Source: Candidatus Aminicenantota bacterium
GTDB lineage: Bacteria; Acidobacteriota; Aminicenantia; Aminicenantales; Saccharicenantaceae
NCBI GenBank assembly: GCA_026393975.1
Contig: JAPKZD010000001.1
Coordinates: forward strand, 1-64,000
DNA: 64,000 nt
Direction: 5' to 3'
The notes under the pieces are model-generated. The model worked only from the letters and a program-made list of their open reading frames with translations, had not been told where the DNA came from and did not search any database. Below, in pieces: positions 28,868-50,720 of this stretch (positions are counted from its first letter, which is position 1; the number at the start of each line of letters is the position of its first letter). The translations under genes were made by a program, and so were the position numbers.

Positions 28868-28978
28868 TTAGTATCTCCATAGAATTGGGAGGCCGTAAAT
28901 CTGAAGGGGTCCAATGTTGGGAATTTTGCCTTGGGAGCGAAGCTCTCTAATATAACAATCGAGCGTCTTCATTCTCAT
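28868..28978 (-). CDS. 36-residue micro-ORF coupled to brxA
   Basis: A 36-codon frame begins at ATG 28978, overlapping the brxA stop in ATGA exactly as the other junctions of this operon do, and ends at TAA 28868. It reads MRMKTLDCYIRELRSQGKIP then PNIGPLQIYGLPILWRY and has no family that I recognise. It could be a real coupled microprotein or a remnant of a longer BrxA C-terminus. Confidence 0.35.
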   Translation of the reverse strand: MRMKTLDCYIRELRSQGKIPNIGPLQIYGLPILWRY

Positions 28979-29775
28979 TGTCGCTTGTCTTTTTCGAACA
29001 AAGCCTCCTGGGTCGCACTCCTCGCGGGTTTCCTCAGTATGGCCAGATCGTTATCCAACCCGTGACGGACAATGTCGAGTCTAGATGACCCAGCCCTAAG
29101 GCTTTCGGCGTGAATCGGTTTGATCCAGAACGGGAAGAAGTTGGGGCTATCGATCAGATCCTTCAGCGGGGCTGAGCCGTTGGCGCGGGTGTGGAGGGAT
29201 GCTTCGGCTAGCCATACGATCAGTTGGGAATCATCGAGGGCCAGTGTTTTGCCGGCGGTATAGATTCCCTTTGTGCCGGTCTCCTGGAGCACGCCCCAGT
29301 CCAGGTACGAACGCAGCACGCGGCGGGCTGCTCGGGAAACGGTCTCCCGCTCACCGTATTGCTCGCGGACCCGGCGCTGGACATGAGCCGCGGCAGCGGA
29401 ACCCTGAAGCCTCAGAAGACGGCCGGTCTGAGTGGCTACACCCGACCAGAACGGGTAGACGGCCATGACCATCCCCCAGTGGATGGCCAGATGATCGCGT
29501 CGAGGAACACGCTTGAGGAGTTCCAAGCCTTCGATTCGCAAGGACTCAAGCTCGCTCGGAACCGTCAGCCATGTCTTGAGGAGAATCGTGATGATCTTCT
29601 CGCGATTGCCGCGTTCAGCCAGGACGCCTACGGACACCTTATCCTTTAGCAGCTCCTGCAAGGCATTGTTGACCGCAGCCTTGTCATTCCCTGCCAGGAT
29701 CAGGTTGGCCGTCTGCTCAAGCCATTCCAGACGCACCCGCTGACTGAATCCGATCTGGTCGGTCCGTCTGGTCAT
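28975..29775 (-). CDS. brxA: BREX-3 BrxA (DUF1819-like)
   Basis: A 266-residue protein placed last in the canonical type 3 order, directly after pglZ (ATGA overlap at 29772-29775). BrxA proteins are NusB-like, helix-rich and bind nucleic acid; the sequence fits, with long amphipathic helices (GFSQRVRLEWLEQTANLI, LESLRIEGLELLKRVPR, VSRAARRVLRSYLDWGVL). The assignment rests on position and fold style more than on a sharp motif. In BREX, BrxA is needed for defence in E. coli type 1 systems. Confidence 0.8.
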   Translation of the reverse strand: MTRRTDQIGFSQRVRLEWLEQTANLILAGNDKAAVNNALQELLKDKVSVGVLAERGNREKIITILLKTWLTVPSELESLRIEGLELLKRVPRRDHLAIHWGMVMAVYPFWSGVATQTGRLLRLQGSAAAAHVQRRVREQYGERETVSRAARRVLRSYLDWGVLQETGTKGIYTAGKTLALDDSQLIVWLAEASLHTRANGSAPLKDLIDSPNFFPFWIKPIHAESLRAGSSRLDIVRHGLDNDLAILRKPARSATQEALFEKDKRQ

Positions 29776-31778
29776 TCCCTCCTCCTCTCGATCTGGACCA
29801 GAGGGACGATGAGTTCCTCGACTGAAATGCCGCCGTGGCTCACGGTGTGCTGCTTTTCTTGGACAAACGCCTGCCGAGCAGGAGCCAGGAGAGCGAGGTA
29901 GTCCTCCGGGAGGCCAACGGGGTCCCATTCCATCGCGGCCGGGAAGCGCTCCTTCACCTTGCCACGAAGGGCTGCGTCGGGATAGACGCGGACCCGTTCA
30001 CCGCGCAGGTCCGCCACGGCTCCTTCCGCCGGACGGCCGCAGCCTGCCGCTTCGATATTGCCGTGGTCGGAGGTGAGGTAGACGCGGAATCCCCGATCCA
30101 AGAGCAGATCGAGGAGCGTGTTCAGGTAGGGTTGCTGGGCCCACTGGCGCACCTGGTTCTGCATGCCTGCGGTGCCCAGCTCCATGCCGTGCATAATCTT
30201 GTCGACCTTATCGACAACCAGGCCGGCAACTCTCACTTTGGGATGTGAAAGCGCTTCGGAAAAGATTTCCAGGGTACCGTCGCCCAGACCCTTGGCGTAA
30301 ATGACCTCGTTAGGCGTGAACCCCTGATCCGCCCAGAATTGCGCCCATAGTGCAGGTTCCTTGTCCGTGGTCTGAATACTGTTTGGAAAAAAGATTGGAG
30401 CCTTGCCGGCGAATGTGGCCTGGCGCGAAACGGATGTGAGTGAAGGAATCCAAGCGAAGACAGCCTGCTCCCGGAATCGGAAGCCGGGCTGCCTTAAGGC
30501 GAGCGCGCTACGGACCACCAGCCACTGGTCCATGGCAAGACCATCCACCACGATTAGTGCGATCTTCGCGTCACGGTCTTCTCCCATCTGACGGGCAAGA
30601 AACCGCGGGAGGTGATGCAGCATGACCGGAGGCACTGGCGGCAGGTTGACAAGCCCGGCGTACCGCTTGAAGAGCCAGGCAGCGAAACCGGCGTCCATCT
30701 GTGCCTGCAAGCTCTTGATGCGTTCGCCCGTCTGTTCGGGAATAGCTTCGGCCTGATCGATCGCCAGCAGGATTAGCTCCGCCCATCCACGGGCAAAGCG
30801 GAACCAGTCCGTGTGCTTTGCGTCATCGGCGGGAATGAATATCTCCAGGCTGTCGATGAGCTTGCCCAAGCGACGAGACCTGTCCTCGATTGGGGCGGTT
30901 CGAACGCCAATGCCTACCCAGGTTTTAGACAGGGTGTTTGCATGATCGTGTGATACGGAATGCAGCAAACCCTCGACGAACAGGTTGTCGATATAGACCC
31001 GGATGTCATGGTGGTCGAATGGGAGATCGACGGGTCCCTCAATAGTCAGACCGTATGGTTTCCCGCCTTCCCGAACACCAGGCTCCCCTTTTGCTGCCTC
31101 ACGATCGAGGAAGATCATCCAGCGCTCCTGGAGGAATGCGAAGAAACTCTCCCGGTCCGAAATAAGCGTCTCAAGCGGCCAGTCGTCGAAGATGTTGCTT
31201 TGACGCAGGAGTTGGATGAACCGCTCGTCCAGCATAGTCGGGATGCGCTGGCTGCGGTAGTGACGGCGCAGAAGCACCCGCAACAGATCCGATGGCTGTT
31301 TAATCAGCTCCGGCGCGATTTCAAAGACGTGTCTGAGGACGAATTCCTTAGTGGCGTTGTCGCCCAACTGGCCGGGAGCGTACCGCCGCTGGGCCTCATA
31401 CAAGGCATCGAGGTCCCCGCGGTCCAGGGCGGTCACGACCGAGTAGCTGAGGTTCGGGAAGATATCTCCAAGACTGAAGGAGAGCTTGCGGCCCGCCTGA
31501 AGGAGATCATAGGGCAACCCACTGAGGTCGCTGGCTTGGGAGCGCAATACGACGACGAGGTCTGTGTGCTCGCCCCGGTCCCAGCGGGAGCGGAACTTCG
31601 ATTCGTAGGCGTAGCGAAAAGAGATGGGGTCATCGAAGGGGATTAATTCGAATCCCCGTTCATGGATGCCTTCGAGAATGCCTTCCTCAAGAAGGAGTCC
31701 ATCCGGGTCAGCGACTAGAGTAAGTCGTGCAACCTTCGGGGTGAACTCCGTCAGGATTTGATCGCGCCAAGAACTCAA
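29772..31778 (-). CDS. pglZ: BREX-3 alkaline-phosphatase-like PglZ
   Basis: A 668-residue PglZ. The alkaline-phosphatase-type core shows LIVVDGLAMDQW with TSVSRQATFAGKAP (metal/nucleophile region), TSDHGNIEA and the late HTVSHGGISVEELIVPL. PglZ is the hallmark protein of every BREX type; E. coli PglZ is a metal-dependent phosphodiesterase in vitro. Its start overlaps the glycosylase stop in ATGA and its stop overlaps brxA in the same way. Length matches type 3 PglZ. Confidence 0.93.
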   Translation of the reverse strand: MSSWRDQILTEFTPKVARLTLVADPDGLLLEEGILEGIHERGFELIPFDDPISFRYAYESKFRSRWDRGEHTDLVVVLRSQASDLSGLPYDLLQAGRKLSFSLGDIFPNLSYSVVTALDRGDLDALYEAQRRYAPGQLGDNATKEFVLRHVFEIAPELIKQPSDLLRVLLRRHYRSQRIPTMLDERFIQLLRQSNIFDDWPLETLISDRESFFAFLQERWMIFLDREAAKGEPGVREGGKPYGLTIEGPVDLPFDHHDIRVYIDNLFVEGLLHSVSHDHANTLSKTWVGIGVRTAPIEDRSRRLGKLIDSLEIFIPADDAKHTDWFRFARGWAELILLAIDQAEAIPEQTGERIKSLQAQMDAGFAAWLFKRYAGLVNLPPVPPVMLHHLPRFLARQMGEDRDAKIALIVVDGLAMDQWLVVRSALALRQPGFRFREQAVFAWIPSLTSVSRQATFAGKAPIFFPNSIQTTDKEPALWAQFWADQGFTPNEVIYAKGLGDGTLEIFSEALSHPKVRVAGLVVDKVDKIMHGMELGTAGMQNQVRQWAQQPYLNTLLDLLLDRGFRVYLTSDHGNIEAAGCGRPAEGAVADLRGERVRVYPDAALRGKVKERFPAAMEWDPVGLPEDYLALLAPARQAFVQEKQHTVSHGGISVEELIVPLVQIERRRE

Positions 31779-32557
31779 GACGCATCTCCTACATTTTTAT
31801 GGGCGCAAAGGTTCGAAAAACGACACCGAACACAGGCTGGTTGCAATGGTCTGCATACTTCGCGTCCGAGCTCCCAGAGAACAAGATCGAAGATACCAGG
31901 ATACTCCGGGTGAAGCTCTCGCGCCCGAAAGATCAAATAATCGACCGAGGCATTCTTGGGAACAAACCCCATTCGGGAAAATACTCGTGTGATTTGAACA
32001 TCCACGGATATGTCGATGGAGTATCTATCGCTGACGGCGACACGAAAATCTCTCACAAGGATGTTGGCTGCCATAGAAGCGATCTTCTGACCTACACCCC
32101 GGAACTCGAGAAAACGGCGCACGATCGTGGCGCTCGAGGGTTTGCCGGTCCAAATTGCTGCAGCGTTGCCACAAAATTCATTCCTTATACGATGCACTGC
32201 AAAGAGAATGTTCTTTGACATTTCATTCGGAAAGCGGTGTATAGGCGTCGGTTGAAGCATGGCCTCGTTAAGCTTTTCCGGCGAAATTTCTGCAAGCCTA
32301 GCCAAATTCGCGAAATCGAAAAAGCCGAGGCGCAGCCTCAATTCATAAGGTATCCGCCATGCCTTCTCAGCCCTTATCTGGCGATCCATGATGCATGCAA
32401 CAACAAATGCATGAGGATGAAGGTCGATATCGTTTAGCAGGTCGTCAGCCTCTTTCTCACCGGTGAATTTCACACGGGCACGCGGCGTGCTGAGCCTGTC
32501 ATACCCTTCTTGAACCAATTGGTCACGAAGACTGCTCACCCTCTCCAGCTTCAGCAT
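31775..32557 (-). CDS. EndoIII-like HhH-GPD DNA glycosylase with Fe-S loop, inside BREX operon
   Basis: A 260-residue helix-hairpin-helix glycosylase. The HhH and catalytic lysine are FRGVGQKIAS (K158), the catalytic aspartate is in ISVDVQITRVFSRMG (D186), equivalent to K120 and D138 of endonuclease III but about 10 residues further apart. Four cysteines at 235, 242, 245 and 251 give C-x6-C-x2-C-x5-C, identical in spacing to the EndoIII [4Fe-4S] loop. Bifunctional base removal and strand nicking is therefore likely. It is not a housekeeping Nth: the N-terminal 100 residues are different and it is coupled at both ends (7-base overlap with brxHII, ATGA with pglZ). A role in attacking modified phage DNA is inferred. 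Confidence 0.85.
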   Translation of the reverse strand: MLKLERVSSLRDQLVQEGYDRLSTPRARVKFTGEKEADDLLNDIDLHPHAFVVACIMDRQIRAEKAWRIPYELRLRLGFFDFANLARLAEISPEKLNEAMLQPTPIHRFPNEMSKNILFAVHRIRNEFCGNAAAIWTGKPSSATIVRRFLEFRGVGQKIASMAANILVRDFRVAVSDRYSIDISVDVQITRVFSRMGFVPKNASVDYLIFRARELHPEYPGIFDLVLWELGREVCRPLQPACVRCRFSNLCAHKNVGDAS

Positions 32558-35321
32558 GCGCTACCCTCTACTCGAATCACAAGCAGGGGCACCATTTCCG
32601 GATAGGCATGGGCTTTCTGGTCAAGCTGCTCCTGGAAACTCCGCTCCTCCTGCGCGAGGAGGTTCAGGCGATAGTTTCGGACTTGGGGCAGGCCGATCCG
32701 CTCGACGGTCTTGCGGCGAGCGGCAAAGGCGTAGTTGGCCTTCTCGCGCTCACGTGCGATGCGGACCCGGTGCTCTTGCACGAGCGCCTCGTAGATAGGC
32801 TTCCCATGTTCTTCCGCGGCGTTCTGCAGCTTTGCGAAGATGGATTGGGAGACCTCGGCGTCAAGAATGGACAGGATCTTTGTGCTTGCTGCGAGGAGTT
32901 GGTCCCACACGTGTCTGGCCGTCGGCATGTAGATCATGCCGTTGTCGGCCAGGAAGAGAGGCATGATCCTTCGACGGTTCCACTCCATGGTGGCAATCGA
33001 GATTCGCCACAAGGACCAGACGCCCTGGACTTCCTCGGAGAGACCTGGGATCGACACGATGGAGACCGGCTGGCCCGGCGCAAAGCGAGGAAGACGCATG
33101 GCCAGACCACGGACCTTCGGATCTTCCAGGGTCAGGTGCCGGGCGGCCGGAAGCCTCTCGGCTTCTTTGCCCGTAAAGACCACGTTCTCGTAGGTTTCGC
33201 CGTCGGGCCAAGTGAGGTTCCAGCCCTGGCTTTTCCTCTCGGCATGGCCGCCATGCGCTGTCAGGTAGCTCACGGTCATGCGCTCGACCCAATGGGGCAA
33301 GGGATGGGTTAGCAGCCGCTGGGCTTCGCCAGGCTCCAGGTCCTCGGTCGCGCCGAGCACGGATGCGGTCGCGCGCGCCTCGCGGGCCTGCTCCTGCACT
33401 CGGGCAACCACGCTCTCCACGGAGTCCTCCACCTTTTCGGGGTTGAGAATCGCTTCGACATACATTTTGTCGAACATCCGTCCGGCCTGGGCAGAGTCGA
33501 GGACGTCACCGGTCTTGTCGATGCCGAACTCCTCGAAGATGACGGCGAGCTTCTGCTCCAATACCTCCCGGACCCGGTGCTCGACCGATCCCTCAAAGAC
33601 AAAGTTGACCGCGCGAACCGCATGGGCCTGGCCGATACGATCCACCCGGCCGATCCGCTGTTCGAGACGCATCGGATTCCAGGGGATGTCGTAGTTGATC
33701 ACCACGTGGCAGAACTGGAGGTTCAAGCCCTCTCCGCCCGCTTCGGTGGAGATGAGAATGCGGGCATCCTTGGCGAATGCCTCCTGGACTCGCTTGCGCT
33801 CTTCCATGTCCATGGAGCCGTTCAGGCAGACGACCGAGAACCCCCGCTCAATCAGGAATCGCCGCAGCATCTCCTGGGTGGGCACGAACTCGGTGAACAC
33901 CAACGCCTTGAGCTCCGGGTCACTCTCTTCAGATTGGAGGCGATATAGCCAGTCGAGTAGCGCCTCGGCCTTGGCGTCCGGGCCCGCCTGCTCGCAACGG
34001 GCCGCGGCCTCCAACAGCAACTTCACCTCGGCGCGCTCGTTCTTGAGCGCCTTGAGGCGGGTGCGAAGCAGCATGTCGATCTGCTCCTGGCCATCCAGGT
34101 CTGCCCATTCCTCCTCGGAGGTGAGCGGGAAAAGAGTCAGTTGCTCTTGGGGTGCGGTGAGCGCTTCGAGCCGCCTTTCGAGCGTGGTGCGGATGGCGCT
34201 CGTGCTGGAGACTACCAAGCGCTGCATCAGGATCATCAGAAAGCCGATGTAGCTCCTCTTCTCCCGCATGGCCTGGTTGTAGCCTTCGCGCTAAGCTGCG
34301 TGCGCCGGGGTTTGAACAGCGGTTTGCCATCGGCATCGATGGCGTGGCGCTTCTCGGTGCGGATCACATGCGGCTGGACCCGCTCGCGGGTGACGCTGCC
34401 GATGTCCGGGAACGCCTGAGCGTCGATCAGGGACACCAGCCGGTAAAAGGCGTCGGTCTTGCCCTGGTGCGGGGTGGCTGAAAGCAGCAGGAAATATGGC
34501 GCGGCCTCGGAGAGTCCCTGACCCAGTTTAAAGCGAGCCACCTGGTCGGTGCTGCCGCCAAGGCGGTGCGCTTCATCGACAATGACCAGGTCCCAGCCGG
34601 CGGAGATCAGATCCTCGAACCGTTCGCGGTTGTGCTCGCCCACCTGGGCCGCGGTCCATCCACGGCGCTTGTCCAGGGGCTTGACCGAATCCATCGGCAC
34701 AACCACCTGTGAGAACATTTGCCAGGCGTTGGCGGGGAGAACCTCCGGGTCATGATTGTCCTTCTCGCCGTTTCCCGGACCCGTTGCCGGGGCGATCCGT
34801 TTCAATGTCTTGATGTCCTCGGGGAGCACGAGCTGGAAGGTCTCACCGAAGTGAAAGCGCATCTCGCTGACCCACTGGCTCACCAGTCCCTTCGGGGCGA
34901 TGACCAGTGTCCGTTTGACCAGCCCGCGGAGCTTGAGCTCCCGCATGATGAGACCGGCCTCAATGGTCTTGCCCAAGCCAACCTCGTCCGCCAGGAGATA
35001 GCGCACCCGGTCGTTGGCGATGGCGCGGGATAGAGCACGGATCTGGTGCGGCAGCGGGATGACGGAGGACTCAATGGGCGCGAACAGGACGTCCTGGGTC
35101 AGGGCGTCGGCCACCCGCACGGCAGCAGCGACGTAGGCGATATCGTCCGGCGAGCCGGTGCCCGCGCTCTCCAGGGACTTAAGCCTGGAAGCCGGGATGC
35201 GGACCACGGAGTCGCGGCCGGGCAGCCAGACGCGGCAGGTCGTCTCACCCCAGAGCGTCTGGACTTCGATAACCTTGCAGACGCTGTTATGGATGGTACT
35301 ATATCGCCAGAACGATTCCAT
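32551..35321 (-). pseudogene. brxHII: BREX-3 SNF2-type helicase BrxHII, split by frameshift/deletion
   Basis: Two overlapping frames together make one BrxHII (DrmD-like) helicase. The first (35321-34236) has lobe 1: DEVGLGKTIEAGL, DEAHRLGG and LLLSATPHQGK. The second (34269-32551) has lobe 2: LVFTEFVPTQEML, ILISTEAGGEGLNLQ and RIGRVDRIGQ. Lobe 1 runs normally to FKPRRTQL, then reads a frame-shifted tail of about 17 residues. The correct frame resumes at EGYNQAMREKRSYIGFL. The family normally has a longer linker here, so a small deletion, roughly 20-30 residues by my estimate, has probably occurred. All helicase motifs survive, and the second frame has an ATG at 34269, so a two-piece protein is conceivable. 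A sequencing or assembly error is also possible. Confidence 0.82.
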
Positions 35322-35328
35322 CTCCTAT

Positions 35329-37932
35329 TTACCCTCTACCACGATCTGTTGCTTGCTGAATCTGGATCGCAGGCGCAATGCGAATTCTAATCTCATCGTA
35401 AATAGCAATATCAACGCCTTCGCTGACTTCCAATGAAACTGCTATACCATAGGCAATCGGATTCAGAATTTTGCCAGCATCTTTACGGCAATTCACCTTG
35501 ATCTCGATGACATCCCCATCACTGAACGGTTCGGCTCTTTGGCCTTCAAAAATCTCATGTTGTACGGTACCCCGTCTTACTGCACGCCATCCATCATTTC
35601 CGCTACAACTTTCTTTTCTTTCTTTAGCTAGGGATATGCCACCAACTTCGAACCACAAACTCGCGATTCGATATTTCTGGGTAGTGGCAGCAACTGGTGA
35701 AAGCCAAGCCAAAGTGACAGTCAAACGTCTCCATTCCGGACGCGAGCCAAGTGATGGCGGCAATGGCAATCGGAAAACGTGGGCTTCACCATCCGAGAGC
35801 TGTCCAAAACCCAGCAGGGTTGCCCGTTGGTTAGTACAATCCAGGACGCGATCTACCTGCGGCATGCCATAGCCCATCCACCGACATATTAGCCCACTGA
35901 GTTGGCTGCCATTTTCTGGCGTGCGAAGCACCTCTGAAATCCGAGTGCCGATATCGCCCCAGGAGCAGCCATGCACCAGTATCGCCTTTAGTAGCGGAAC
36001 TTCATAAGTTCGCGGGTCTATTTCGGCCGCCTGCTCGTTGAAAATTTGCTGCAGCGAGTCGTAGCAAATCCCCGCAGCACGGCTGATTAACGCCGTGGCG
36101 TTGCTTGTGCCGCAACTATAGGAAGTTGCCATTAACTCACCAGCAAGACTGCCTGGCGAGGCAACCTTATTCCCAGGCGTAGTCCGAAAGATGGCTGGCT
36201 CGATGGTAATCAGCTCCGCTGGCCGCAACGGAAGCCGATACCATTGTTTGCCTCCGTTGAATACCATATCGGGTTTTACTGCACGGCGATAACCGCTTCC
36301 GAAGGCGGATACTGGGCTTGGCAGAATTTGCTCAAAGGGATCAAATCTGGTTCCTGGGTGAGCCACTTGAGATGCGTCATGATGGACGGCACCGACTGTT
36401 AGACCATTGATAGATTCCGCAGGAGAGAGCAACTTTCTATGTCGGGCGTCTCGATAGAGTGCTTTGATAGTTGCGGCCTCTAATTCGCTGGGCTGCAAGG
36501 AATCAAATTCATCGCGGGAAATACCCAATGAAACGGAGGTTGCATGATTCCCCGCGCTGACGACAAATAAAACGCCATACTTGACGCTCAGCCAGTCAAG
36601 CAACCTGGCGATAGGACTCATAGAACGAGTGAATTGCCTGCTTTGATCACCGATGGACAAATTAATGACCTTGGCTTGCGGGGCAATTGGGTCATCGCCT
36701 TGGTCGCCCTCGAATATCCTTCTAACAGCCCTATGAATAAGATCTACAGCAAGACAATCTTCTGGAACTCTTTCTGGACGAGGCATATTTGGCCAAGGAG
36801 TTGGTTTCATAATTGGCCGAACATAGATGGGTCTGGCAAGCGGAGCTGTTCCCTCATTGAGGTCGCCGTGAATAATGAGGGACGCCATGGATGTCCCATG
36901 GACACGTTCTGAGGCGGTGTAATCATCTGCTTCCCAGTTCTCGGGGTCATCGATTTGAACTCGTCCAGCCAACAATCGGTGGTTGGCCAAGGGCACTCCG
37001 TCCAGAAGCGCGATGGCCGGGTCACCGTCAGGTAAAGGCATTTCTTCAATCGCAGCGACTTCTACCTCGCCTTCCTGCGGCCTGTCGCCCACAACCATTT
37101 GGCCAACAGGCCTGAAAAACCAGACGTTTTCACACTTGGCTAGCTCGGTTGTGGGGTTCTCAACGATAGAGCGGATAGCGTTGGCCGGTAACTCGACCAA
37201 TAGGCCATGATAGGCGATGCCTTCGATAATGGATTGGCTCAGAATGCGGCCACCAAGTTGCCGCACGAGATCCGTGACTTGACCAGCGCTGGATTGCCGA
37301 CTCTCTGCACTTCCCCGGAACCAGAGTTCTGCTTCAAATGGGATGACTCTACTCTCGTCATACTCAAGATTCTCACGCCAGATCTCGATCAAGCCAGTTT
37401 CCAAAAGCCTATCTTGGACGTCCCATCGACGTATACTTTTGAGATGAAGAAACACATCTCTAAATTTGGCCAAACCATGTTCAAACTGCATGTCTTGATT
37501 GGCTTGATAACGTCGCCACAAAGATAGCATCTCATCAAGCGCCCGTTGATTGGTCATGACGAGGTATAGGCGTCCGTTCAATTCCTTCTCGGGATTTGAT
37601 TCATCGTAGAAATCTTGATCGGGAGCGATTTCGTCGCTCTCTAGCTCGCCCATCCATTCAAGACCCTCGATGAGTTTTACCGCATTGGCAAAATTCTCGA
37701 CACTGCCAACCGTCTCGATGACGAGTACTTGTTCAGGATCGCCGCCAGCCGTATTTTGCTGTATCTCGACGCGGTGGGCATTAAATGCCGCTTGAAGCTG
37801 GTTGAACATCGGCGAAAGCCGAGCGCCTTGCCTTGCAAGATCGGGCTTATGAACACGGCCGAATTGCGGCCGTTGTTTTGTTCGATCAGCCGCTACTGGA
37901 GTTGGGAAAAGCAGTAATGGGTGTTCAGGCAT
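35329..37932 (-). CDS. ietS: IetS-like S8 subtilisin protease of an AAA/subtilisin defence pair
   Basis: An 867-residue subtilase with the full catalytic set: D311 (IALLDGV), H345 (VHGTSMAS), oxyanion N462 (SAGNHAT) and S610 (CGTSNATAL). About 300 residues precede the protease domain and 200 beta-rich residues follow it. No signal peptide is present, so it acts in the cytoplasm. It overlaps the AAA ATPase gene by 8 bases. The pair matches IetAS, known as a plasmid stability toxin-antitoxin on Agrobacterium Ti plasmids and later shown to protect against phage. Here it sits between pglXI and brxHII. Confidence 0.88.
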   Translation of the reverse strand: MPEHPLLLFPTPVAADRTKQRPQFGRVHKPDLARQGARLSPMFNQLQAAFNAHRVEIQQNTAGGDPEQVLVIETVGSVENFANAVKLIEGLEWMGELESDEIAPDQDFYDESNPEKELNGRLYLVMTNQRALDEMLSLWRRYQANQDMQFEHGLAKFRDVFLHLKSIRRWDVQDRLLETGLIEIWRENLEYDESRVIPFEAELWFRGSAESRQSSAGQVTDLVRQLGGRILSQSIIEGIAYHGLLVELPANAIRSIVENPTTELAKCENVWFFRPVGQMVVGDRPQEGEVEVAAIEEMPLPDGDPAIALLDGVPLANHRLLAGRVQIDDPENWEADDYTASERVHGTSMASLIIHGDLNEGTAPLARPIYVRPIMKPTPWPNMPRPERVPEDCLAVDLIHRAVRRIFEGDQGDDPIAPQAKVINLSIGDQSRQFTRSMSPIARLLDWLSVKYGVLFVVSAGNHATSVSLGISRDEFDSLQPSELEAATIKALYRDARHRKLLSPAESINGLTVGAVHHDASQVAHPGTRFDPFEQILPSPVSAFGSGYRRAVKPDMVFNGGKQWYRLPLRPAELITIEPAIFRTTPGNKVASPGSLAGELMATSYSCGTSNATALISRAAGICYDSLQQIFNEQAAEIDPRTYEVPLLKAILVHGCSWGDIGTRISEVLRTPENGSQLSGLICRWMGYGMPQVDRVLDCTNQRATLLGFGQLSDGEAHVFRLPLPPSLGSRPEWRRLTVTLAWLSPVAATTQKYRIASLWFEVGGISLAKERKESCSGNDGWRAVRRGTVQHEIFEGQRAEPFSDGDVIEIKVNCRKDAGKILNPIAYGIAVSLEVSEGVDIAIYDEIRIRIAPAIQIQQATDRGRG

Positions 37933-38929
37933 CTTTCACCTCCGGCTCATCTTGTTGTGCTACTTTTACTGATCTGGCAGACCATTGCTGGAGGGTTTTG
38001 GATACAATATCCTTCATGTTAGCGTCCGGTTGGCCCAATACATACTGCCGAAATATTGTGGTACCGAATTCTTCGACTTCAGCAAAACTGGAGCCCAATA
38101 GCCGCTTGGCCAGATTGCCGCGAGCGTACTCCAGAGGAATGTTGATCCGGCGTTCGAATTTCTCAAACCACTCGGCTATTCGGGCACGAGTTGGGCCGGG
38201 CAGATTCATGCGGACCTGGAACCGACGCCATACTGCGCGATCTAGCAGTTCAGCGTGGTTGGTCGCACCGATCACCATGACATGGCTTGGCAGATTATCG
38301 ATCTGCATCAGCAATGAGCTGACCACTCGCTTAATCTCGCCGGTCTCGTGAAGGTCGCCACGCTCTTTACCGAGAGTTTCAAACTCATCGAAAAAGAGAA
38401 CACATTTCCTGGTAGAGGCAAACTCAAACAGCTTTTTCAGGCGCAGAGCTGTTTCTCCCAGGTAGGTGCCGACTACGCTTTCATATCGGACCACGAGAAG
38501 CGGCACCACGAGTGCCTCTGCTATCGCTTCGGCAAGGGACGTTTTGCCATTGCCGGGCGGGCCGATAAGCAGGAGACGGTTGCGGGGCTCCAGGTTATAG
38601 GCCCTGAGGAGATCCATTCGGTGGTGTTCCTGAACCAAGCTCTGGCAGATCTGCTGCACTTCCTCGGGCAGGATCAGCTGCGATAATTTTCGCTGCGGTA
38701 TGATCTCGTGAAACAGGGTACCCATACGCTGGTCGAGCATTGGCCCACCATTGGTGGCAAGACGTTCTACAGGGGCTGCGTTTAATAATTCTTCCAACTT
38801 TTCGGCCAGCACTTTGTGCTGCTTGCATCGTTCTTCGGCAATAATTGCCTCAACGACCTTTCTGAATGTGGCCTTGTCGCACCGTATTCCAGATTGGACA
38901 AGGCTAACTAATAGGTCCGCTCTTGCCAT
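37925..38929 (-). CDS. ietA: IetA-like AAA+ ATPase, partner of subtilisin
   Basis: A 334-residue AAA+ ATPase. I start at ATG 38929 because GGAGG lies 8 bases upstream inside pglXI and the start overlaps the pglXI stop (TAATG). Walker A is GPPGNGKT (123-130), Walker B VLFFDEF (177-183), sensor 1 GATNHAELLD, and arginine finger region RAVWRRFQVRMN. The domain is of the FtsH/spastin-like classic clade. In IetAS the ATPase is thought to restrain or activate the protease. The tight coupling to pglXI shows the pair is translated as part of the BREX message. Confidence 0.9.
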   Translation of the reverse strand: MARADLLVSLVQSGIRCDKATFRKVVEAIIAEERCKQHKVLAEKLEELLNAAPVERLATNGGPMLDQRMGTLFHEIIPQRKLSQLILPEEVQQICQSLVQEHHRMDLLRAYNLEPRNRLLLIGPPGNGKTSLAEAIAEALVVPLLVVRYESVVGTYLGETALRLKKLFEFASTRKCVLFFDEFETLGKERGDLHETGEIKRVVSSLLMQIDNLPSHVMVIGATNHAELLDRAVWRRFQVRMNLPGPTRARIAEWFEKFERRINIPLEYARGNLAKRLLGSSFAEVEEFGTTIFRQYVLGQPDANMKDIVSKTLQQWSARSVKVAQQDEPEVKDA

Positions 38930-41754
38930 TATTCGCCTCCTATTCGTGTTACTGCTTGATCGTACCACATGAGGAGCTTCGGGTCCTCCTGGAGGACGTT
39001 TTCGGGAATCTTATGGGCCACGGTGATGATTGTGGCGTAGTCGCGCTCCTGCCACGCCTTCTTGAACCCGGCGCGGACGGCCTCAAGACGAAACACCTTC
39101 AGGCGCTTCTGGCTGGACGTTCGGTATTCCTCGAACTCTTTGAGCAGCGACCTTTCGCGCAGCTTCTCCAGGTCGCCGGCCTTGTTCGGGTCGGGCACGT
39201 ACCAGCGATCCTTGCCCTTGGCTCGGAGGCTTTCATCGTTCTTGGGCAGGTTGCGCAATTCCTTGAAGTTGGTAGACAGGTAGCTGTGAATCTGGTTCGG
39301 CACCTCGCCCTTGCCGTCGTAACGCAGAAAGTTCTGTTCGAACAGTTCATCGAGTTCAAGTAGCTTCTCGGTTTTCTGCCATCCTCCGATTTCCTGCATG
39401 AACTGAGGCTTTAGCTCACCTGCCGTTTGGGGCTTTCTCAGTAGCTGCTGTCGAAGCCACTGGATAGCCGAGGACTCGTCGGTGACGAAAAGCTGGAGCT
39501 GCAGTACCTCGCGCACCTTCATGCGCTTCTTGTCGTACTCGGGCACCTGCTCGGGGAGGAAGTACATCCCATCCCGCTCGGAGAACCTCTGGGCAAGTCC
39601 GGCATAGAACTCAGCCGCGGACAGAGGAACGGTTACGCCGCGCTGGACATGGAAAGCCACCATGCGGTCGAAGAGCAGATAGTTCTGACGTTCGGCGATA
39701 AGCTCGGCTTGCTCGTCCTTGAAGACGAAGACAGGGAGTTGCTTCAGATGCGTGCGGCTGAAGTCCCAAACACCTTCTTCACTCCCGGCTATCAATCTGA
39801 AACGATCCTCAAGGCCACCGTTGGGTTTATAGGCAGAGATCACGAGATCTTGGTCGACTGCACCTGACCTGTTGACCGCGTTGAAGGACCGCTGTTGCTT
39901 GTCAAGGACGTGCACGTCTGCGATAACCAACCCAGATGATTCAACGGCTTGCTGTATTGCGCTCCAAACCGCATTCTGGCTGTTGTGGAACTCGATGGTT
40001 ATCCATCGCCCGGGTTTCAGTAGTCTGGCATACTCCTTGAACGCTCCAAACATCATGTGCGAGTAAAATGACAAATCTTTCTTGTGCACATAATTCAGAA
40101 CGCAATCTTTCTCAACAACGGTTCTTACTTTTAACCAAGCTTCGACAAACATGTTCAGCTCGGCATACTGGAGCGACTCTCCAAATGGTGGGTCAGTGAA
40201 GATATAGTCAACTGTCTCGCTGGGGATATTCCGCAGATTAATGATGCTTTGAGTCGAGACATAACCTGGCTCGTCTTCTTCCACTGCAAGTGACCGGAGC
40301 TTCTTGAGCTTGCGCCTCAGAACGTCGAAGACGTTTCTCTCAAGGTGAAGCGACGGCGTAAAGAGGGTACCGGTCACCCCACCACCCCCGCCGAAGTGGC
40401 CTTGCTTCCTGGATATGTAGTTGTTGATGGCACTCAAGCAGAATCTAAATAGCGAAGTGCGTTTATGTGATGAAAGCCGCTGTTGCCACAAGTAGCCGTA
40501 TGCGAATAGTGCCCTCTGCGTGTACATATGGCAAATGTGTGAGATGCCCGAGCCGTTAATGAGTTTGTTAGTTTGCCGCCCCGGAAAAAACTCGTCCGTA
40601 GGAATATGAGGCCAGGAGCGTCCCTCAAAGCGAGAAACTAAAATTTTCCTTCCTTCGTCCTTGATGATTTTCGTCTTGCGGGTCGATCCGGTTTTAGTCG
40701 TTTCCTCTACGAGAACAAGCTTCGGTACTCGTACCACCTTATTCAGAATCGGATCGAATGCTGCAGCGAATGGACGTTCGAGCTTGACGGCACCAGTTGT
40801 CTTGGAGGCAGCCTTGCCAACAGTTGTCCCACAATGTGGGCAAGGAAATGACTCTTGCATTGTTCCATCTTTGAGCGCTGCTTCCCAAAAAACAAATTCA
40901 TGGCTGCAATTTGGACATAGGAATAAGTCTGACCAAACTGCGCTCAAAACCTGACCACCAAAAACACCCTCATAAAGCCAACCAAGTTCCTTCTCAACCT
41001 TAGAAACGAGCTTCAGAGCCTCTTCTGTGAATGTCACGAGGGAAGAAAAGTCAGCATAATTGCTTGCAATAAAGGTGGCGACGGGAGACAAGTCCGATAA
41101 GATTGCCCGGCGTCCTCCGACACGCGATACGCGATTATTCTTGGAATCCAGAATCGTCCCATCGGTGCTGACCTGATAACCCATAGACGCCACGGCCTGT
41201 TTGCTCCCACATAGCCGAGCGGCCACTCCCGTCATCCCCGTCCCGCAGAACCCGTCAAAGACCACATCCCCCGGTTCGGTGTAATGGAGGATGTACCGCA
41301 TGATAGCCTTATGCGGCACCTTGGTGTGGTAGGAGTGGGCGTTGTAGATCGGATCGTTCTTGCCTTCGCTTACATCCGCGGCGAATGGCTCGCGGCTATA
41401 CGGCGTGCTCGGGTCGTAGGGCTTGCTGTAATGCCTGATGAAGTCAGCGATGAATGGGTTCGGGCAGGCGGTGTAATAAGGCGGGTCGGACAGCGCCAGA
41501 ATGTCCTCATCCGAGCCTATAGGGAATCCCTCGATCTTGCGGAACTCCGGGTCTTTTAGCTTCTCGCGCAGCATCTCCAGGAAGTGCTTCCGCCGCTCCT
41601 CGTCATTCGAGAAGGTCATGCCGAGACAGGTGACAGGACCGGAAGCGGCCTCATAGATCACATCAAACAGTCTGTCTGAGTCTGGGGCGGCGGGTACAAC
41701 TGCCTCCTTGAAGAGTCGTTCACTGCTTTCTTTGGGCTTAGTGCGTTTCTTCAT
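38929..41754 (-). CDS. pglXI: BREX-3 adenine-specific DNA methyltransferase PglXI
   Basis: A 941-residue methyltransferase. SAM-binding motif FDGFCGTGMTG begins near 166 and the catalytic motif TDPPFGES is near the middle, with another DPPY at 90-93. Two zinc-knuckle pairs (CPNC and CPHC) lie between the two halves of the domain, as in DUF1156-like enzymes. In type 3 BREX this enzyme marks host DNA at a non-palindromic site. It starts 5 bases after brxC, with GGAG upstream, and its TAA overlaps the ietA ATG by one base. The length is typical. Confidence 0.92.
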   Translation of the reverse strand: MKKRTKPKESSERLFKEAVVPAAPDSDRLFDVIYEAASGPVTCLGMTFSNDEERRKHFLEMLREKLKDPEFRKIEGFPIGSDEDILALSDPPYYTACPNPFIADFIRHYSKPYDPSTPYSREPFAADVSEGKNDPIYNAHSYHTKVPHKAIMRYILHYTEPGDVVFDGFCGTGMTGVAARLCGSKQAVASMGYQVSTDGTILDSKNNRVSRVGGRRAILSDLSPVATFIASNYADFSSLVTFTEEALKLVSKVEKELGWLYEGVFGGQVLSAVWSDLFLCPNCSHEFVFWEAALKDGTMQESFPCPHCGTTVGKAASKTTGAVKLERPFAAAFDPILNKVVRVPKLVLVEETTKTGSTRKTKIIKDEGRKILVSRFEGRSWPHIPTDEFFPGRQTNKLINGSGISHICHMYTQRALFAYGYLWQQRLSSHKRTSLFRFCLSAINNYISRKQGHFGGGGGVTGTLFTPSLHLERNVFDVLRRKLKKLRSLAVEEDEPGYVSTQSIINLRNIPSETVDYIFTDPPFGESLQYAELNMFVEAWLKVRTVVEKDCVLNYVHKKDLSFYSHMMFGAFKEYARLLKPGRWITIEFHNSQNAVWSAIQQAVESSGLVIADVHVLDKQQRSFNAVNRSGAVDQDLVISAYKPNGGLEDRFRLIAGSEEGVWDFSRTHLKQLPVFVFKDEQAELIAERQNYLLFDRMVAFHVQRGVTVPLSAAEFYAGLAQRFSERDGMYFLPEQVPEYDKKRMKVREVLQLQLFVTDESSAIQWLRQQLLRKPQTAGELKPQFMQEIGGWQKTEKLLELDELFEQNFLRYDGKGEVPNQIHSYLSTNFKELRNLPKNDESLRAKGKDRWYVPDPNKAGDLEKLRERSLLKEFEEYRTSSQKRLKVFRLEAVRAGFKKAWQERDYATIITVAHKIPENVLQEDPKLLMWYDQAVTRIGGE

Positions 41755-41759
41755 CTCAA

Positions 41760-44700
41760 TTACTCCACTACGATGCGCACCTTGCCCAGTTCCTTACCCT
41801 TAGTGAGCTGGTCCAGGTATTCCTCGAACCGCTTTCTCATCTCGGCCGAAGTGGCCGGTGAGCCGCCCGCAAGCAGGGCATCGCGCAGGTCCGCGATCTT
41901 GACCAAGACCTTGGTGAGCCCGGAGAGCACCTCCTGCAGGGCGTGGATGAAGGCCTGGTCCAGATCGTCCGGTAGGGCCCGCTTCTTGATGAACCCGTCC
42001 ACCAGCTTGCGCGGCTCGGACTTGAGCAGGCTCAGGTTACCCTTGGTGGTTGGGTCTTCGAGGTTGGCGAGCAGCGTCTGTGTCCAGTTTTCGACCAGCT
42101 TATCGAGCTCGCCGTCCAAGGCGTCGAGCATCGTCGCCGCGGGAGCCGTGGGCGGTTCCGCGCCCGGTTTGAAGTTGCAGTGCGGGCAGACCGGCGATGC
42201 TTCCAATTCCTGCTCGGTGAGCGCAAAGCAGCTCTTCAATCCCGCGAGCCGGTTCTGGAAGTCCGAGAGGTGCTGGCGCGGCATCAGGTCGATGGTGGAG
42301 AGCTTCTGCATATCCTTGAGCCGCTCGTCGCCCATGAGCTGGGCCTTGCGCTTGTCCTCGTTCACGCCAAGGCGCGCCTTGGCGTGCAGGGAGAGGTAGG
42401 CCAGCAGGTATGCCTTTTTGAGATCGCCGAGCTTGCGCTGGGTCTGCTGGCGGAAGATAGCCGCGCTCCGCTTAGCAGGGTCGCCGATCTGGGCGAGGAC
42501 CTCGTCCCGGACCGTCTTCATCTTGTCGATCCACTCGTGGCCGGTTGGCAGGACCGCCTCAGCGGTGGAGAGGTACGATGCCGTGGACCCGAGGTCGGCC
42601 ACCAGCTCCTCGAGCGACTTGATCTCGGCCAAAGAATCGAGCCCGTCCCGATGGGCGATCACTTCCGAGGCGTCGTAGCGGAAGTTCTTGAGCTTGCCGG
42701 TCGTCGTATAGGCTTGCAGGGATTCAAGGAAGGTCTTGGTCCCGTCCAGTTTGGCGCGCAGCTTCTTGACTTCTTCTTCAGCCAGCAGGCTGCGGCCCCA
42801 AAAAAACAATCCGTTCTGCAGGTTCTGCTGAATGAGCACGAGCCGCTCCACGGCGTTGGTGACGGCCTTCTGCAACTCCTGAACCGGCTCGTCCTTGCCC
42901 TGGGTGACCAGTTGGGCCATGCCCGGCGTAAGGCCGAGCAGTTCGAAGAGCGCCTTGAGCGCTGGGAGATTCCAGTCCTTGGGCCGCTCGATGTGCTTGA
43001 ACTGGGCAAGCTCGTCGATGCCGGTCCCGGCCAGTTGTGGTAGACCCGTGGCGTCGAACTTCTTGCCCGGGATGGAAAGGACCACTTCGCCGGAATAGAC
43101 CAGCGCGGCCAGCACTACCACGGCCCATTCGGGTTCGAGCCGAAGGCGGTCCTTGTCCATGTACTCGATACCTTTGTCATCCTGGACCAGCTCGGAACGG
43201 TTGACCACCTGGCCGTGGCCCTTCTTCTTGGCGACGCCAAGGATATGCTTGGCATATTTCGACCGGTATGGATCGAGCCGCTCGCCGTCGAGCAGTTCCA
43301 GGGCGTCCAGCACTGCGGTGGCCTGCTTGGTGCGGTTCTGTCCGGCGATGGCGCGCAGGGCGTCCTGCGCGGCCTGGGCCCGGTTCGCTCCGGTGATAAG
43401 CACCGAGAAGAACGGGTATTCGGGAGCCTGGTCCTGGAATTTCGTCCCAAGACAGATGCCCGCGGTGGTGTTCACCAGGTCGCGGAAGTTGATGCGCTCG
43501 TGGGAGCCAATACCCGGAAGCTCGCGGATGGACTTGCCCTTGGCCCACTCGGTTAGGGACTTGGCGCGCCCCTGGTAGGTGACCTCAAAGGCCGTGGTCA
43601 TGTTCTTCTGCAGCCATTGCACGAGGTCGCGCAGGAAGTTCGATGCCTTGGATTCGTAGGTGGACTTGGCATGGCCCGAGGCGGTGGATGCAAGGTCCAG
43701 GGCCGCCGCGTAATTTCGAAGCGCGGTGCGGAACTCCTCGTCGGTGTTCGCCAGGCGCAGGAACAGCTCGTCGGGCTTCTTCTCGTCCTTGAAGTGCGGC
43801 ACGTCGAAGGGTTGGATGAAGTAGAGGTAGAAATCCCGTGGCGGCACCGCCGTGGAGCGTTCGTTGGGTGCACCGAAAAACAGGTATCCCTGGCGTGCGG
43901 CCTTGCGCTCCAGCCATTCGAGCTCGTGCTGCCAGATCTTGTAGCCCGTCATATAGGTCTGGTCGGTGCACTCCATGACCCTCCGGAGCGCTTCGTAGTA
44001 GTAACGGTCGAGCTGCGAGGAGTCGAGGCTTTCAGCCCGCTTCTCGATCAGGGCATCGAAGTCGTCGGTCTTCTTGAGGTCCAGGTAGTATTGGTGGTTA
44101 TCCGGGTTGGACGAGATGAACTGACCGCTCACCGTCTTGTGGATTTCCCGCAGGACGGTCTCCACCTGGGAGAGCAGATCGTCGGCGGGATCGCCGCCCA
44201 GTTCCTCGATGCCGGGTTGAAAGAGGCACAAGCCGTCCCGCAGTTCCTCCGCTGTCGCGCCCAGGGAGGCGTAGATGTCGCCCGTCGTGAGCCGGTGGAC
44301 CGATAGCGCATGGATGAGCTGGGTTGCCATCGGTTTGTATGCCGGACGGGTGAAGGCCTGCTGGATGCGCGACTCGAGCACCTGGCTGCAATCGATGACC
44401 GCCTTGATGTCCGGGACAGCGCGGAAGGACGGATTCTCGCGCAGGGTCGTCCAGTAGCCGTCATAGGCGATGACCCCGGGCCGGTCGTCGGGCACGTTCT
44501 GGCCGAGGAGCTTCTTCATGGCCAGGGAAAGGGTCTTGAGCACCTCGCGCTTTTCCACTGCGGTGACCCGTTCAAAGGTGTCGATATAGTCCGGATGCAC
44601 GGGAAAGAGGCGCACGAACTCGTCCATACGCTCGTTCATGCGGCCGTAGAACTTGGCGAAGGGAGTCAGGTACTCTCGTATTTTCACTTGCTGGTCGGCG

Positions 44701-45488
44701 GTCTTCTTGAGCAGACGCTCGGCCACCACGAACTTGACATCCTTTCGGGCGATGAGGATTTGCTCGAAACGGTCCTTTACCCGGCGGATACTGTCGGCCA
44801 CGAAGGAAAAACGAGGACTATCGAAAATGGCTTCCTGGACGCCGGCAATGAAGCGGAACCGCAGGTCCTTACAGACCTCGCCGATCTCGCGCAGGAAGTT
44901 AAGATCGAGGATCAGCTCCTGATCCTTGCGCGTGCGCAGGTAGTCGAGCAGCTCGTCCACCACCAGGAGCAGGCCGTGGTCGGGAAACTCCTGGTGGAAG
45001 GCGGTCATCATCTCTTCGAAGGCGCGCTTGTTGTTGGGCACCTTGTCCGCGGGCGGAAAGGAATAAGACACACCCATTGCGGCTAGGTGCTCCTCCAGTT
45101 CGGCCACGAGGATGTCGCGCAGGGACATGGTGGTCGCGCCGATTTCGGTCCTGACCACCTTGAAGCGGCCGCCGATCTTGTCCACAGCTTTCGCCACACT
45201 CTTATCGTTCAGATGGGTCGCGAGATCGCCGTTTTCAGCCAGGGCGGAGATCACGGACATGAGGTGCGACTTACCGGTGCCGTAGTTGCCGACGACCAGC
45301 AGCCCCCTGCTATCTATGGGCTGGTCGAACTGAAGCTGAGGAACAACCAGGTTTACCAGCTTCTCGGCCATCTCCTCGGAGATGACGTAGGTCTGGACAA
45401 GTTGCCGGGCAGCAGCGGCCTCGTCGGCATCCCGCAGTTGCACTACCGATTCGATAGGCTCGAATTGAATCAGGTCTCCGTATTTCAT
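41760..45488 (-). CDS. brxC: BREX-3 large ATPase BrxC (PglY/DUF6079-like)
   Basis: A 1,242-residue P-loop ATPase, the largest BREX protein. ATG 45488 is preferred over 45530 because GGAGG lies 9 bases upstream and the longer frame would overlap the brxF end. Walker A is [12 protein letters not shown] (residues 65-76) and Walker [13 protein letters not shown] near 170. The rest is mostly helical, with a putative zinc pair CPHC near 1,090. BrxC is thought to assemble with PglX and BrxB/BrxF-type partners on DNA; it is essential for BREX immunity. Confidence 0.92.
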
Positions 45489-45522
45489 CGCTACTGCCCT
45501 CCTACACTTTCGCTCCTTGTTT

Positions 45523-46005
45523 TCATGCAACGGCCTCCGGGCTCACTACCAGGAAATCTCGTATGGGATATCGTTTGTATTCGGTATGGCCCGGCGTCGC
45601 GTAAAGCAACTGCTTGTCGTCGATCGAGCCTCCCCACGCCGCGACCACCGTCTTGTTCCGTGAGAGCCCCTGCAGGAGTCGCAGAGGATCCTGTTTTAAC
45701 GAGACATCAAACAGAATTTCGATATTGTCCAAGAGAATCACTTCGGCTGCAGATGCGGATGCGTACACGATTTCTGCAAGGAGGCGGGGCAACTGCAACG
45801 CTCGCTGGCGCTCGGTAAGGTCGAGCATGCGCCGAGTGAGCTCGAGATTGACGTTAACCAGCGGAGCCGCCGTGCGCTCATGCACATCCTGGAGCGCGGC
45901 GGTCTTGCCCGCACCGGCTGGGGCCACCAGTATGACGAGACGATGGTATAGCTCGGCCGCTTGGCCGATTCTTCGAATAACTCCGTCGGAAAGTGGCTCC
46001 GCCAT
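45523..46005 (-). CDS. brxF: BREX-3 P-loop protein BrxF
   Basis: A 160-residue small ATPase, the type-3-specific BREX component. Walker A is [12 protein letters not shown] near 29-40 and Walker [13 protein letters not shown] near 90. The RBS AGGAGG lies about 10 bases upstream of the ATG, and the gene is 34 bases before brxC. Its presence together with pglXI and brxHII is what assigns the system to type 3. Confidence 0.92.
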
Positions 46006-46036
46006 TATCGAAATCCTCCTGAACCCGGGTTGCTCA

Positions 46037-46225
46037 TCAGTTCTTCATTTTGCCCATCGCAACAAGAATTCGGCCAAGCCGCTTATGTCCGGTCTTCATA
46101 TACCACTTGGACCACCAGGTGATTATATCCCGAGCAGATAGGTTATCAATATTCTGTTCAATCTCGGCCTGGGCCTGTGATGCGGCATCGTCCATCTGAC
46201 GCATCAATCCTTCATCAGTCGGCAT
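46037..46225 (-). CDS. 62-residue small protein heading the BREX operon
   Basis: A short ORF with a strong Shine-Dalgarno (AAGGAGGAG, about 7 bases before ATG 46225) and an acidic helical N-terminal half (MRQMDDAASQAQAEIEQNID), then a basic C-terminal half (WWSKWYMKTGHKRLGRILVA). It lies 31 bases upstream of brxF in the same direction. The charge split and position suggest a small regulator or partner of BrxF, but I do not recognise a family. Confidence 0.65.
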   Translation of the reverse strand: MPTDEGLMRQMDDAASQAQAEIEQNIDNLSARDIITWWSKWYMKTGHKRLGRILVAMGKMKN

Positions 46226-49953: not shown

Positions 49954-50720
49954 AGCCCGAATTTGGCGCAGAACGCTTCGGTAATCTTCCAAAGCTCGGG
50001 GGGGAGGATTTCCTCGACTTTCTGTCTAATGGACGGCGAAACTGGACCATAGAAAGCCTCAGCAATCCCGCCCGTGATGCAGGCGAGGGTATCGCTGTCA
50101 CCGCCAAGGGAGATCGCGTTACGGACGGCATCCTCGTACGAGGTGGACTCCAGGAAGGAGATGATGGCCTCGGGGACTGTCCTTTGGCAGGATTCATCGA
50201 AGGAGTAGGACGGTCGGATCTCATCTACGGTGCGGTTTAGGTCGTATTTGAATCTAGCCGCGATCTCGTCTCGGATAACCTCTTTGTCACTTGCGGTCCT
50301 GGCCAAGAAAATAGCCAGCGCCGTGGCCTGGGCACCCTTGATGCCTTCGGGGTGATTGTGCGTGAATTCCGCCGTCCGGGAGGCCTCGCAGAGAACGTCA
50401 TCGACCGAATTGAACGCGAAACCGATAGAGCTGACGCGCATGGCAGAGCCATTGCCCCAGCTGTTATAGGGTTTCGGGTCCGACGAGCGGAGCCATGAAT
50501 TGAAAAACCCGCCATAACCGGCATCCGGATAGCGCCGGCCGAAATCCAGAACGGCTTTTCGATAATCCCTGTCCGTTAGGATGGCCTGGGCGATTGCGAC
50601 CGTCATGACCGTGTCGTCGGTAAAACAGCTGTCCGGCCCAAAGAGCGGGAACTCCTTACTCTTGATCCGCCCGAACTCATAGACCGAGCCGATGATATCG
50701 CCCGCGATGGCTCCGATCAA
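49950..50720 (-). CDS. ADP-ribosylglycohydrolase-family protein
   Basis: A 256-residue ARH/DraG-fold hydrolase that removes ADP-ribose from proteins or nucleic acid. Dinuclear magnesium ligands are in TDDTVMT (34-40) and GGDSDTLACITGG near 205. Other family marks are AIAGDIIGSVYE at the start, GNGSAMRVSSIG and THNHPEGIKGAQA. It is convergent with AbiEii. No ADP-ribosyltransferase gene is visible nearby, so a partner would be elsewhere or of phage origin. Confidence 0.92.
   Translation of the reverse strand: MIGAIAGDIIGSVYEFGRIKSKEFPLFGPDSCFTDDTVMTVAIAQAILTDRDYRKAVLDFGRRYPDAGYGGFFNSWLRSSDPKPYNSWGNGSAMRVSSIGFAFNSVDDVLCEASRTAEFTHNHPEGIKGAQATALAIFLARTASDKEVIRDEIAARFKYDLNRTVDEIRPSYSFDESCQRTVPEAIISFLESTSYEDAVRNAISLGGDSDTLACITGGIAEAFYGPVSPSIRQKVEEILPPELWKITEAFCAKFGL

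Follow-up and report, generated by a model that had tools for sequence, protein, structure and literature searches.

A toxin-antitoxin-like IetAS protease pair as candidate suicidal back-up in an exchangeable cargo slot of type 3 BREX operons

Why should a phage-defense operon contain an AAA ATPase, a subtilisin-like protease and a DNA glycosylase-like gene among its core genes? The question is raised by a 64,000-nucleotide stretch of DNA (the window) from a Candidatus Aminicenantota bacterium (contig JAPKZD010000001.1, assembly GCA_026393975.1), in which a one-strand array running from 46005 to 28975 on the minus strand comprises brxF, brxC, pglXI, ietA, ietS, brxHII, a helix-hairpin-helix (HhH) glycosylase-like gene, pglZ and brxA. 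All six core genes of type 3 bacteriophage exclusion (BREX) are present by homology and in canonical order (PADLOC). Relative to that system, the window adds ietAS between pglXI and brxHII and the glycosylase gene between brxHII and pglZ, and its brxHII is broken. An earlier note, made from the sequence alone, had named these nine genes in this order on one strand, and profile searches agree, with the HhH gene falling just under the Pfam cut-off. The same note had proposed a new composite, multilayer BREX type with both additions built in. Our results do not support a conserved type of this kind, because IetAS recurs in other BREX-3 operons and the glycosylase does not. Instead, IetAS is one of many cargos of a slot after pglXI, where it most likely would serve, by analogy with a related toxin-antitoxin pair, as the operon's suicidal back-up and addiction module.

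The recurrence of IetAS was seen in two samples. For a census, a genome collection (84,980 species) was scanned with a PglXI alignment, which yielded 79 loci from the best 80 of at least 584 matches. In six of the 79, ietA lies right after pglXI, and four of these can be read through ietS; the contigs of the other two, L069 and L088, end inside ietA. The second sample was an IetA profile search of 345 genomes of the phylum of L086, the locus on which this sample was centered, and it returned IetA at E 1e-100 or better in 11 genomes. Six of these encode an IetA 85-88% identical to that of the window, five inside BREX-3 (L086, L089, L154, L155 and L156, the first two already known from the census) and one between BREX remnants (L157); the pair lies between pglXI and brxHII in L154, L155 and L156. 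In the other five, IetA identity is no higher than 69%, and the 3.7 to 19.4 kb examined contain no brx match. Altogether, ietA directly follows pglXI in nine further BREX-3 loci from four named phyla, and ietS followed by brxHII is readable in seven of them.

Not only the position but also the junctions are conserved. As taken from open reading frame (ORF) ends and the DNA, brxF overlaps brxC by 8 nt in the window, a 5-nt gap separates brxC from pglXI, pglXI and ietA have 1 nt in common (TAATG), ietA overlaps ietS by 8 nt, ietS is followed by brxHII after 7 nt, brxHII overlaps the HhH gene by 7 nt, and pglZ overlaps brxA by 4 nt (ATGA). The overlapping or close junctions claimed in the earlier note are thus real, save that the HhH gene meets pglZ at TTGA, pglZ starting at TTG, and not at ATGA. 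All six census carriers have the same 1-nt overlap between pglXI and ietA as the window (with a GTG start in L069), and the TAATG junction is also found in L154, L155 and L156. The 8-nt ietA/ietS overlap was present in five of five cases measured, window included, and the 7-nt gap before brxHII in four of five (the window, L075, L086 and L089; L066 differs).

Phylogeny points to a shared origin of these pairs. Midpoint-rooted trees were built from 34 IetA and 25 IetS rows, the IetS tree being confined to loci in which ietS can be read; both include free-standing pairs drawn from plasmids, genomes and viral contigs. The 11 BREX-linked or remnant IetA proteins form one clade (support 96/88, with one change in 96% of bootstrap trees), as do the nine BREX-linked or remnant IetS proteins (support 100/97), and the hosts in this clade beside the window are labelled Pseudomonadota, Thermodesulfobacteriota, Actinomycetota and Armatimonadota. 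The suggestion of the earlier note that the same overlaps be sought in unrelated contigs was therefore borne out for IetAS, by nine more BREX-3 loci and by single IetA and IetS clades. The backbones that carry this clade are diverse: the window's BrxHII is 81% identical to BrxHII of L156, 64% to that of L066 and 61% to that of L075, and L066 and L075 are 58% identical to each other. IetA is 85-90% identical to that of the window throughout, with lower values in L066 (80%) and in L088 (76%), which is cut. L089 shares the backbone of L075 (95-97% identity in BrxC, BrxHII and PglZ), and its IetS pairs with IetS of L156, which has a different backbone, with support of 100/100. Since the same IetAS clade occurs in at least three BREX backbones, the pair, judged from these trees, moves as a cassette and has been exchanged between backbones. 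The genome G189 carries two BREX-3 operons that are 81-87% alike in pglXI, brxHII and pglZ, one with IetAS (L156) and one with an AIPR/AbiU-like cargo (L094).

Two further observations concern how the cassette may vary and move. The IetA rows of L086 and L154 are identical in the tree, and their IetS proteins differ strongly (that of L154 is 71% identical to IetS of L075, which is 98% identical to that of L086); it seems that the protease either diverges faster or is replaced independently. We also considered whether the end of pglXI is a recombination tract peculiar to IetAS carriers, an idea that we rejected because conservation of the final 100 residues of PglXI does not depend on the cargo, with 75-86% identity to the window in 13 of 15 loci with IetAS or other cargo and 88-91% in L019 and L020. 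These residues could provide homology arms for cargo exchange.

The motif residues of both proteins of the cassette are intact. The IetA alignment contains GPPGNGKT and VLFFDE, which we take to be the Walker A and Walker B motifs, and D311, H345 and S610 of IetS, presumably the catalytic triad, are invariant in all eight aligned rows. The dN/dS ratio was low (0.03-0.10) for ietA and ietS in the pairs for which dS could be computed, although most dS values lie above 0.8 and other pairs are saturated. A sequence search of the PDB with IetS gave no match.

IetAS shares its position with a wide range of other genes. The slot census was limited to the 62 loci with pglXI and a next core gene, which is brxHII in 45, pglZ in 16 and brxC in one; the other 17 of the 79 were left out because the sequence ends earlier or a core gene is lacking on the strand. 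The interval after pglXI measures at least 300 bp, our definition of a filled slot, in 51 of the 62 loci and less in 11, and it is filled in 39 of the 45 loci in which brxHII comes next; some slots so defined have no ORF of 70 codons (L060) or have ORFs on both strands (L092, L097). Of the slot ORFs that reach 150 aa, 100 are co-oriented with the operon and five point the other way. Cargos were named from representatives, and remaining members were assigned by clustering. The commonest, in 13 of the 62 loci, is an AAA_15/DUF3696 protein of about 640 aa together with a 350-aa protein that has no PADLOC or Pfam match (for example, L061:12799-15772), followed by a HEC-03-like pair and a 229-aa RNA ligase (PF09414) in six (for example, L064:12771-15384) and by IetAS in four. 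Gabija (representative L058), PDC-S68, an AAA/Schlafen pair, a trio with a PD-T4-6-like kinase, a PtuA-like cargo and two further unnamed sets occur in two loci each, and SIR2-HerA in one (L085). Thirteen other slot contents make up the remainder, some without a clear gene, and several slot proteins lack a PADLOC or a Pfam match. A second stretch, between brxC and pglXI, is longer than 300 bp in 43 of 67 loci.

Two loci stand apart in their organization. L037:3052-12892 has a rearranged order, brxF-pglXI-brxC-pglZ-brxA, and no brxHII match. The pglXI match of L018 (Klebsiella plasmid AP022422.1) ends at query residue 171 and is followed by an arsenic resistance operon; the 3.7-kb ORF before this match is brxC-sized.

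The operon itself was probably acquired. Of 142 genomes from the class, that of the window alone has a pglXI match of E 1e-60 or better, and the IetA matches in 39 other relatives are at most 41% identical and probably represent other AAA proteins. Within the window's own phylum (396 genomes), 12 IetA matches at E 1e-60 or better include that of the window; no BREX gene was found around the best match in 10 of the other 11, save for a 26% helicase match in L129, in a check that leaves out G436 and second matches and includes some short contigs. The nearest BREX backbones found (pglXI identity: L019, 87%; L020, 84%; L021, 76%) belong to metagenome-assembled genomes (MAGs) labelled as other taxa. 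In the place of ietAS, L019 encodes a 1250-aa protein grouped by clustering with PDC-S68 of L035, and L020 has a 319-aa protein without a Pfam match; the L021 sequence ends before the slot position.

The glycosylase gene has a different distribution. No match to it was found by tblastn in the DNA of all 79 BREX-3 loci, and the brxHII/pglZ junction is no longer than 31 nt in 31 of the 33 readable loci; the two longer junctions carry other genes, encoding proteins of 381 aa (L090) and about 127 aa (L027). The former, at L090:18634-19776, occupies the same junction as the glycosylase in the window and gave weak metallo-beta-lactamase-fold matches below the cut-off. A genome-wide search, covering 50 of the 79 loci (49 genomes), found clear relatives in two genomes, G143 (50%) and G158 (partial, 49%), and a weak one in a third; those of G143 and G158 lie on short stretches without brx matches. 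Among 297 genomes of the window's phylum, four glycosylase matches reached E 1e-30 or better, window included, and the other three have no brx match within 3.3 to 19.5 kb and, in two cases, a stop codon inside the match. Relatives (40-50%) also occur in four viral contigs, in one of which (L165) it is flanked by a terminase-like and a portal-like gene, as read by eye from the translations; single-sequence viral-contig scans with the glycosylase and PglXI returned no relatives. Inspection by eye of L163, L164 and L165 (IMG/VR) placed the HhH relatives beside head-/portal-like phage genes.

The protein itself has the motifs expected of an HhH-GPD glycosylase. K158, D186 and C235/C242/C245/C251 are invariant in five of five rows and, by analogy with EndoIII, presumably represent the HhH hairpin lysine, the catalytic aspartate and a CX6CX2CX5C cluster. 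Among its best PDB matches, whether found by sequence or by fold, HhH-GPD enzymes predominate, alongside DUF2419 queuine salvage enzymes, and the best Foldseek match is Deinococcus EndoIII-3 (E 3.7e-4, TM-score 0.42), obtained with a modest model whose mean predicted local distance difference test (pLDDT) value is 69.5 and whose C-terminal part is mostly below 50. From its distribution, the glycosylase looks like a mobile gene that landed here by happenstance with tight overlaps, a separate and so far unique insertion in BREX-3; perhaps it acts on modified phage bases.

The earlier note was right by homology in calling brxHII, and it overlooked that the gene is not intact. Two ORFs match one PADLOC model, in order, and comparison with the intact brxHII of L020 (a Synergistaceae MAG), whose aligned flanks are 84 and 86% identical to the window in DNA, shows 68 bp missing and one base extra near 34292, a net deletion of 67 bp by which the reading frame is lost. 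No second brxHII was found in the genome beyond the two halves (25 contigs, 95% complete), and the break may come from an assembly error. If the break is real, BREX itself may be impaired in this genome, with IetAS still intact. Lack of BrxHII may be tolerated, since BrxHII has been reported in 77% of type 3 taxa (PMC12839542).

How might the cassette act within the operon? A homologous pair from SGI1 is described as a toxin-antitoxin system in which the protease is the toxin and the ATPase the antitoxin, and the same study cites these roles for the pair of pTiC58 (PMC5006074). We therefore hold with moderate confidence to a model in which this type 3 BREX operon carries a toxin-antitoxin-like IetAS cassette in the pglXI-brxHII slot. 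IetA would restrain the IetS protease while the operon is expressed; infection or BREX failure would upset this control, and the released IetS would cleave cell proteins and stop growth. The pair would thereby act as a suicidal back-up to BREX and would also penalize loss of the operon. A more general version, which we put forward tentatively as possible, is that type 3 BREX is a chassis with a cargo bay after pglXI, in which translationally coupled suicide modules based on a nuclease, NADase, kinase, ligase or protease are interchangeable and swap between backbones. IetAS would be the dedicated protease arm, its ATPase sensing the condition of BREX and freeing the protease when BREX is blocked.

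These models have to be weighed against several alternatives. IetAS could prevent loss of the operon and give no phage defense of its own, which we consider rather unlikely. The SGI1 pair stabilizes its island (PMC5006074), and IetAS can outlive its BREX neighbors: at L157:4259-7847, intact ietA and ietS (IetA 86% identical) lie between decayed pglXI and brxHII ends, as read by eye from translation and DNA, with no other brx match on the 13.8-kb contig. L157 is a fossil in which BREX is gone and the IetAS cargo has outlived it, and in the window the pair is intact beside a broken brxHII. However, PADLOC counts IetAS among defense systems, and the presence of Gabija (L058) and SIR2-HerA (L085) in the same slot elsewhere suggests selection for defense. 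L157 is also a precedent for a decaying remnant, in which brxHII is dead, BREX does not work and selection acts on IetAS alone, or perhaps on the glycosylase too. This explanation is possible, if doubtful: it is consistent with the net 67-bp deletion and with no second copy of brxHII having been found, but the remaining genes of the operon have uninterrupted reading frames, absence of BrxHII may be tolerated given its reported frequency (PMC12839542), and the break may be an assembly error.

By contrast, it is very improbable that ietAS simply dropped into the operon with no functional link. Its GC content is lower than that of brxC and brxHII (0.51-0.53 for ietAS and 0.50 for the HhH gene, versus 0.59-0.64 for brxC, brxHII and pglZ; pglXI, at 0.53, resembles ietAS rather than these), and IetAS is also present without BREX in genomes, plasmids and viral contigs. 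Against this explanation stand the nine additional loci, which agree in position and junctions and belong to a single clade on several backbones and in four named phyla, and the conserved junctions largely refute it; on the strength of these junctions, the second sample and the single clades, we set aside a chance insertion. Improbable too is the proposal of the earlier note of a new BREX type in which IetAS and the glycosylase each form a built-in conditional layer. The glycosylase gene does overlap brxHII and pglZ tightly, its motif residues are intact, and its relatives in phage contigs and scattered genomes are what might be expected of a mobile defense gene. The check suggested in the earlier note nevertheless failed for this gene, which is unmatched in the 79 BREX-3 loci, and the two exceptional brxHII/pglZ junctions hold other genes; a new BREX type that includes the glycosylase was rejected on these grounds.

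Several points weigh against the back-up model favored here. The 79 BREX-3 loci are not a random sample, and IetAS is a minority cargo among them, in four of 62 complete loci plus the two cut loci (L069 and L088). IetAS is absent from four plasmid BREX-3 loci (L013-L016), and L019 and L020, the closest backbones with a readable slot, carry other cargo. The free-standing IetAS compared here came only from two phyla, plasmids and viral contigs, and some that belong inside the clade may have escaped notice. The structure model of IetS was too poor to be used (mean pLDDT 42). Lastly, the persistence of ietAS without intact BREX, in L157 and in the window with its broken brxHII, fits addiction as well as defense.

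Coordinates and supporting matches for the operon are collected in Table 1. PADLOC matches are full-length or nearly so for BrxF, BrxC, PglXI, IetA, IetS, PglZ and BrxA. Ten promoter-like sites were found in the region, against 7.6 expected by chance. Directly downstream of brxA on the same strand lies a REase-ARP (PF22558) gene (27788-28801), with a PDDEXK_1 nuclease gene beyond it (25721-26929), a possible continuation of the defense island. Upstream of the operon and on the opposite strand is an AbiEi/AbiEii-like type IV toxin-antitoxin pair (48051-49953), followed by an ADP-ribosylglycohydrolase gene (49950-50720) and then tRNA-Ala.

Table 1. Features of the BREX-3 operon in the window
Feature	Position	Strand	Evidence and remarks
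brxF	45523..46005	-	PADLOC BrxF, 252 bits
brxC/pglY (DUF6079)	41760..45530	-	PADLOC BrxC, 2095 bits; Pfam DUF6079
pglXI methyltransferase	38929..41754	-	PADLOC PglXI, 1289 bits
ietA, AAA ATPase	37925..38929	-	ATG at 38929; PADLOC IetA, 498 bits; start conserved across related loci
ietS, subtilisin-like protease	35329..37932	-	PADLOC IetS, 1124 bits; Pfam Peptidase_S8
brxHII, 5' part (broken gene)	34236..35321	-	PADLOC model positions 5-333
brxHII, 3' part (broken gene)	32551..34269	-	PADLOC model positions 362-930
HhH-GPD Fe-S DNA glycosylase-like gene	31775..32557	-	Pfam HhH-GPD, 25.8 bits; gathering cut-off 26.2
pglZ, TTG start	29772..31778	-	PADLOC PglZ, 1013 bits
brxA, ATG overlapping pglZ stop	28975..29775	-	PADLOC BrxA, 335 bits, from residue 52 of longest ORF
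Promoter-like site upstream of brxF	46122..46149	-	Consensus match only, 11/12 matches

The idea of a BREX-3 slot and that of extra effectors inside BREX are partly in print already (PMC10799925, PMC12839542). BxaP is described as a type 3 BREX cargo located between PglXI and BrxHII that defends alone, probably by abortive infection (PMC10799925). It is a single DUF4145 protein, whereas the window has a protease pair; the two are alike in position. Nuclease auxiliary or back-up effectors inside BREX, Gabija/PARIS-like and Schlafen ones included, were catalogued in 2026 (PMC12839542). They form an embedded second layer, as the pair in the window would, with nucleases there and a protease pair here, and the main text of that study mentions no subtilisin, IetS, glycosylase, HhH or SIR2. 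The phage inhibitor Ocr is reported in that study to suppress BREX. The IetAS of pTiC58 and the SgiAT of SGI1 likewise consist of an AAA ATPase followed by a subtilisin-like protease, and the window pair gives near full-length PADLOC matches; it differs in lying inside BREX-3 and in having its own clade among the compared rows, which do not include the pTiC58 and SGI1 proteins. Antiphage DNA glycosylases have been described in Brig1 and Brig3, of the uracil-DNA-glycosylase superfamily (PMC11078745, PMC13160076). These are DNA glycosylases in a defense setting, as in the window, where the best PDB matches are instead mainly HhH-GPD enzymes. An IetAS protease cassette with its own clade and exchange in BREX-3 was not found in the literature searched, including PMC10799925 and PMC12839542. 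What is new here is the protease pair as exchangeable BREX-3 cargo.

In summary, a protease pair that is likely a toxin-antitoxin system joins the back-up effectors of BREX, which were catalogued in 2026 as nucleases. The phylogeny indicates that this cargo is passed as a cassette from one BREX backbone to another, with its slot fixed. The natural chimeras described here, with the same backbone and another cargo, the same cargo on another backbone, or a cargo that remains after BREX loss, offer a test of whether such cargos sense BREX or act alone, and the slot marks a place in the operon in which to look for further defense genes.

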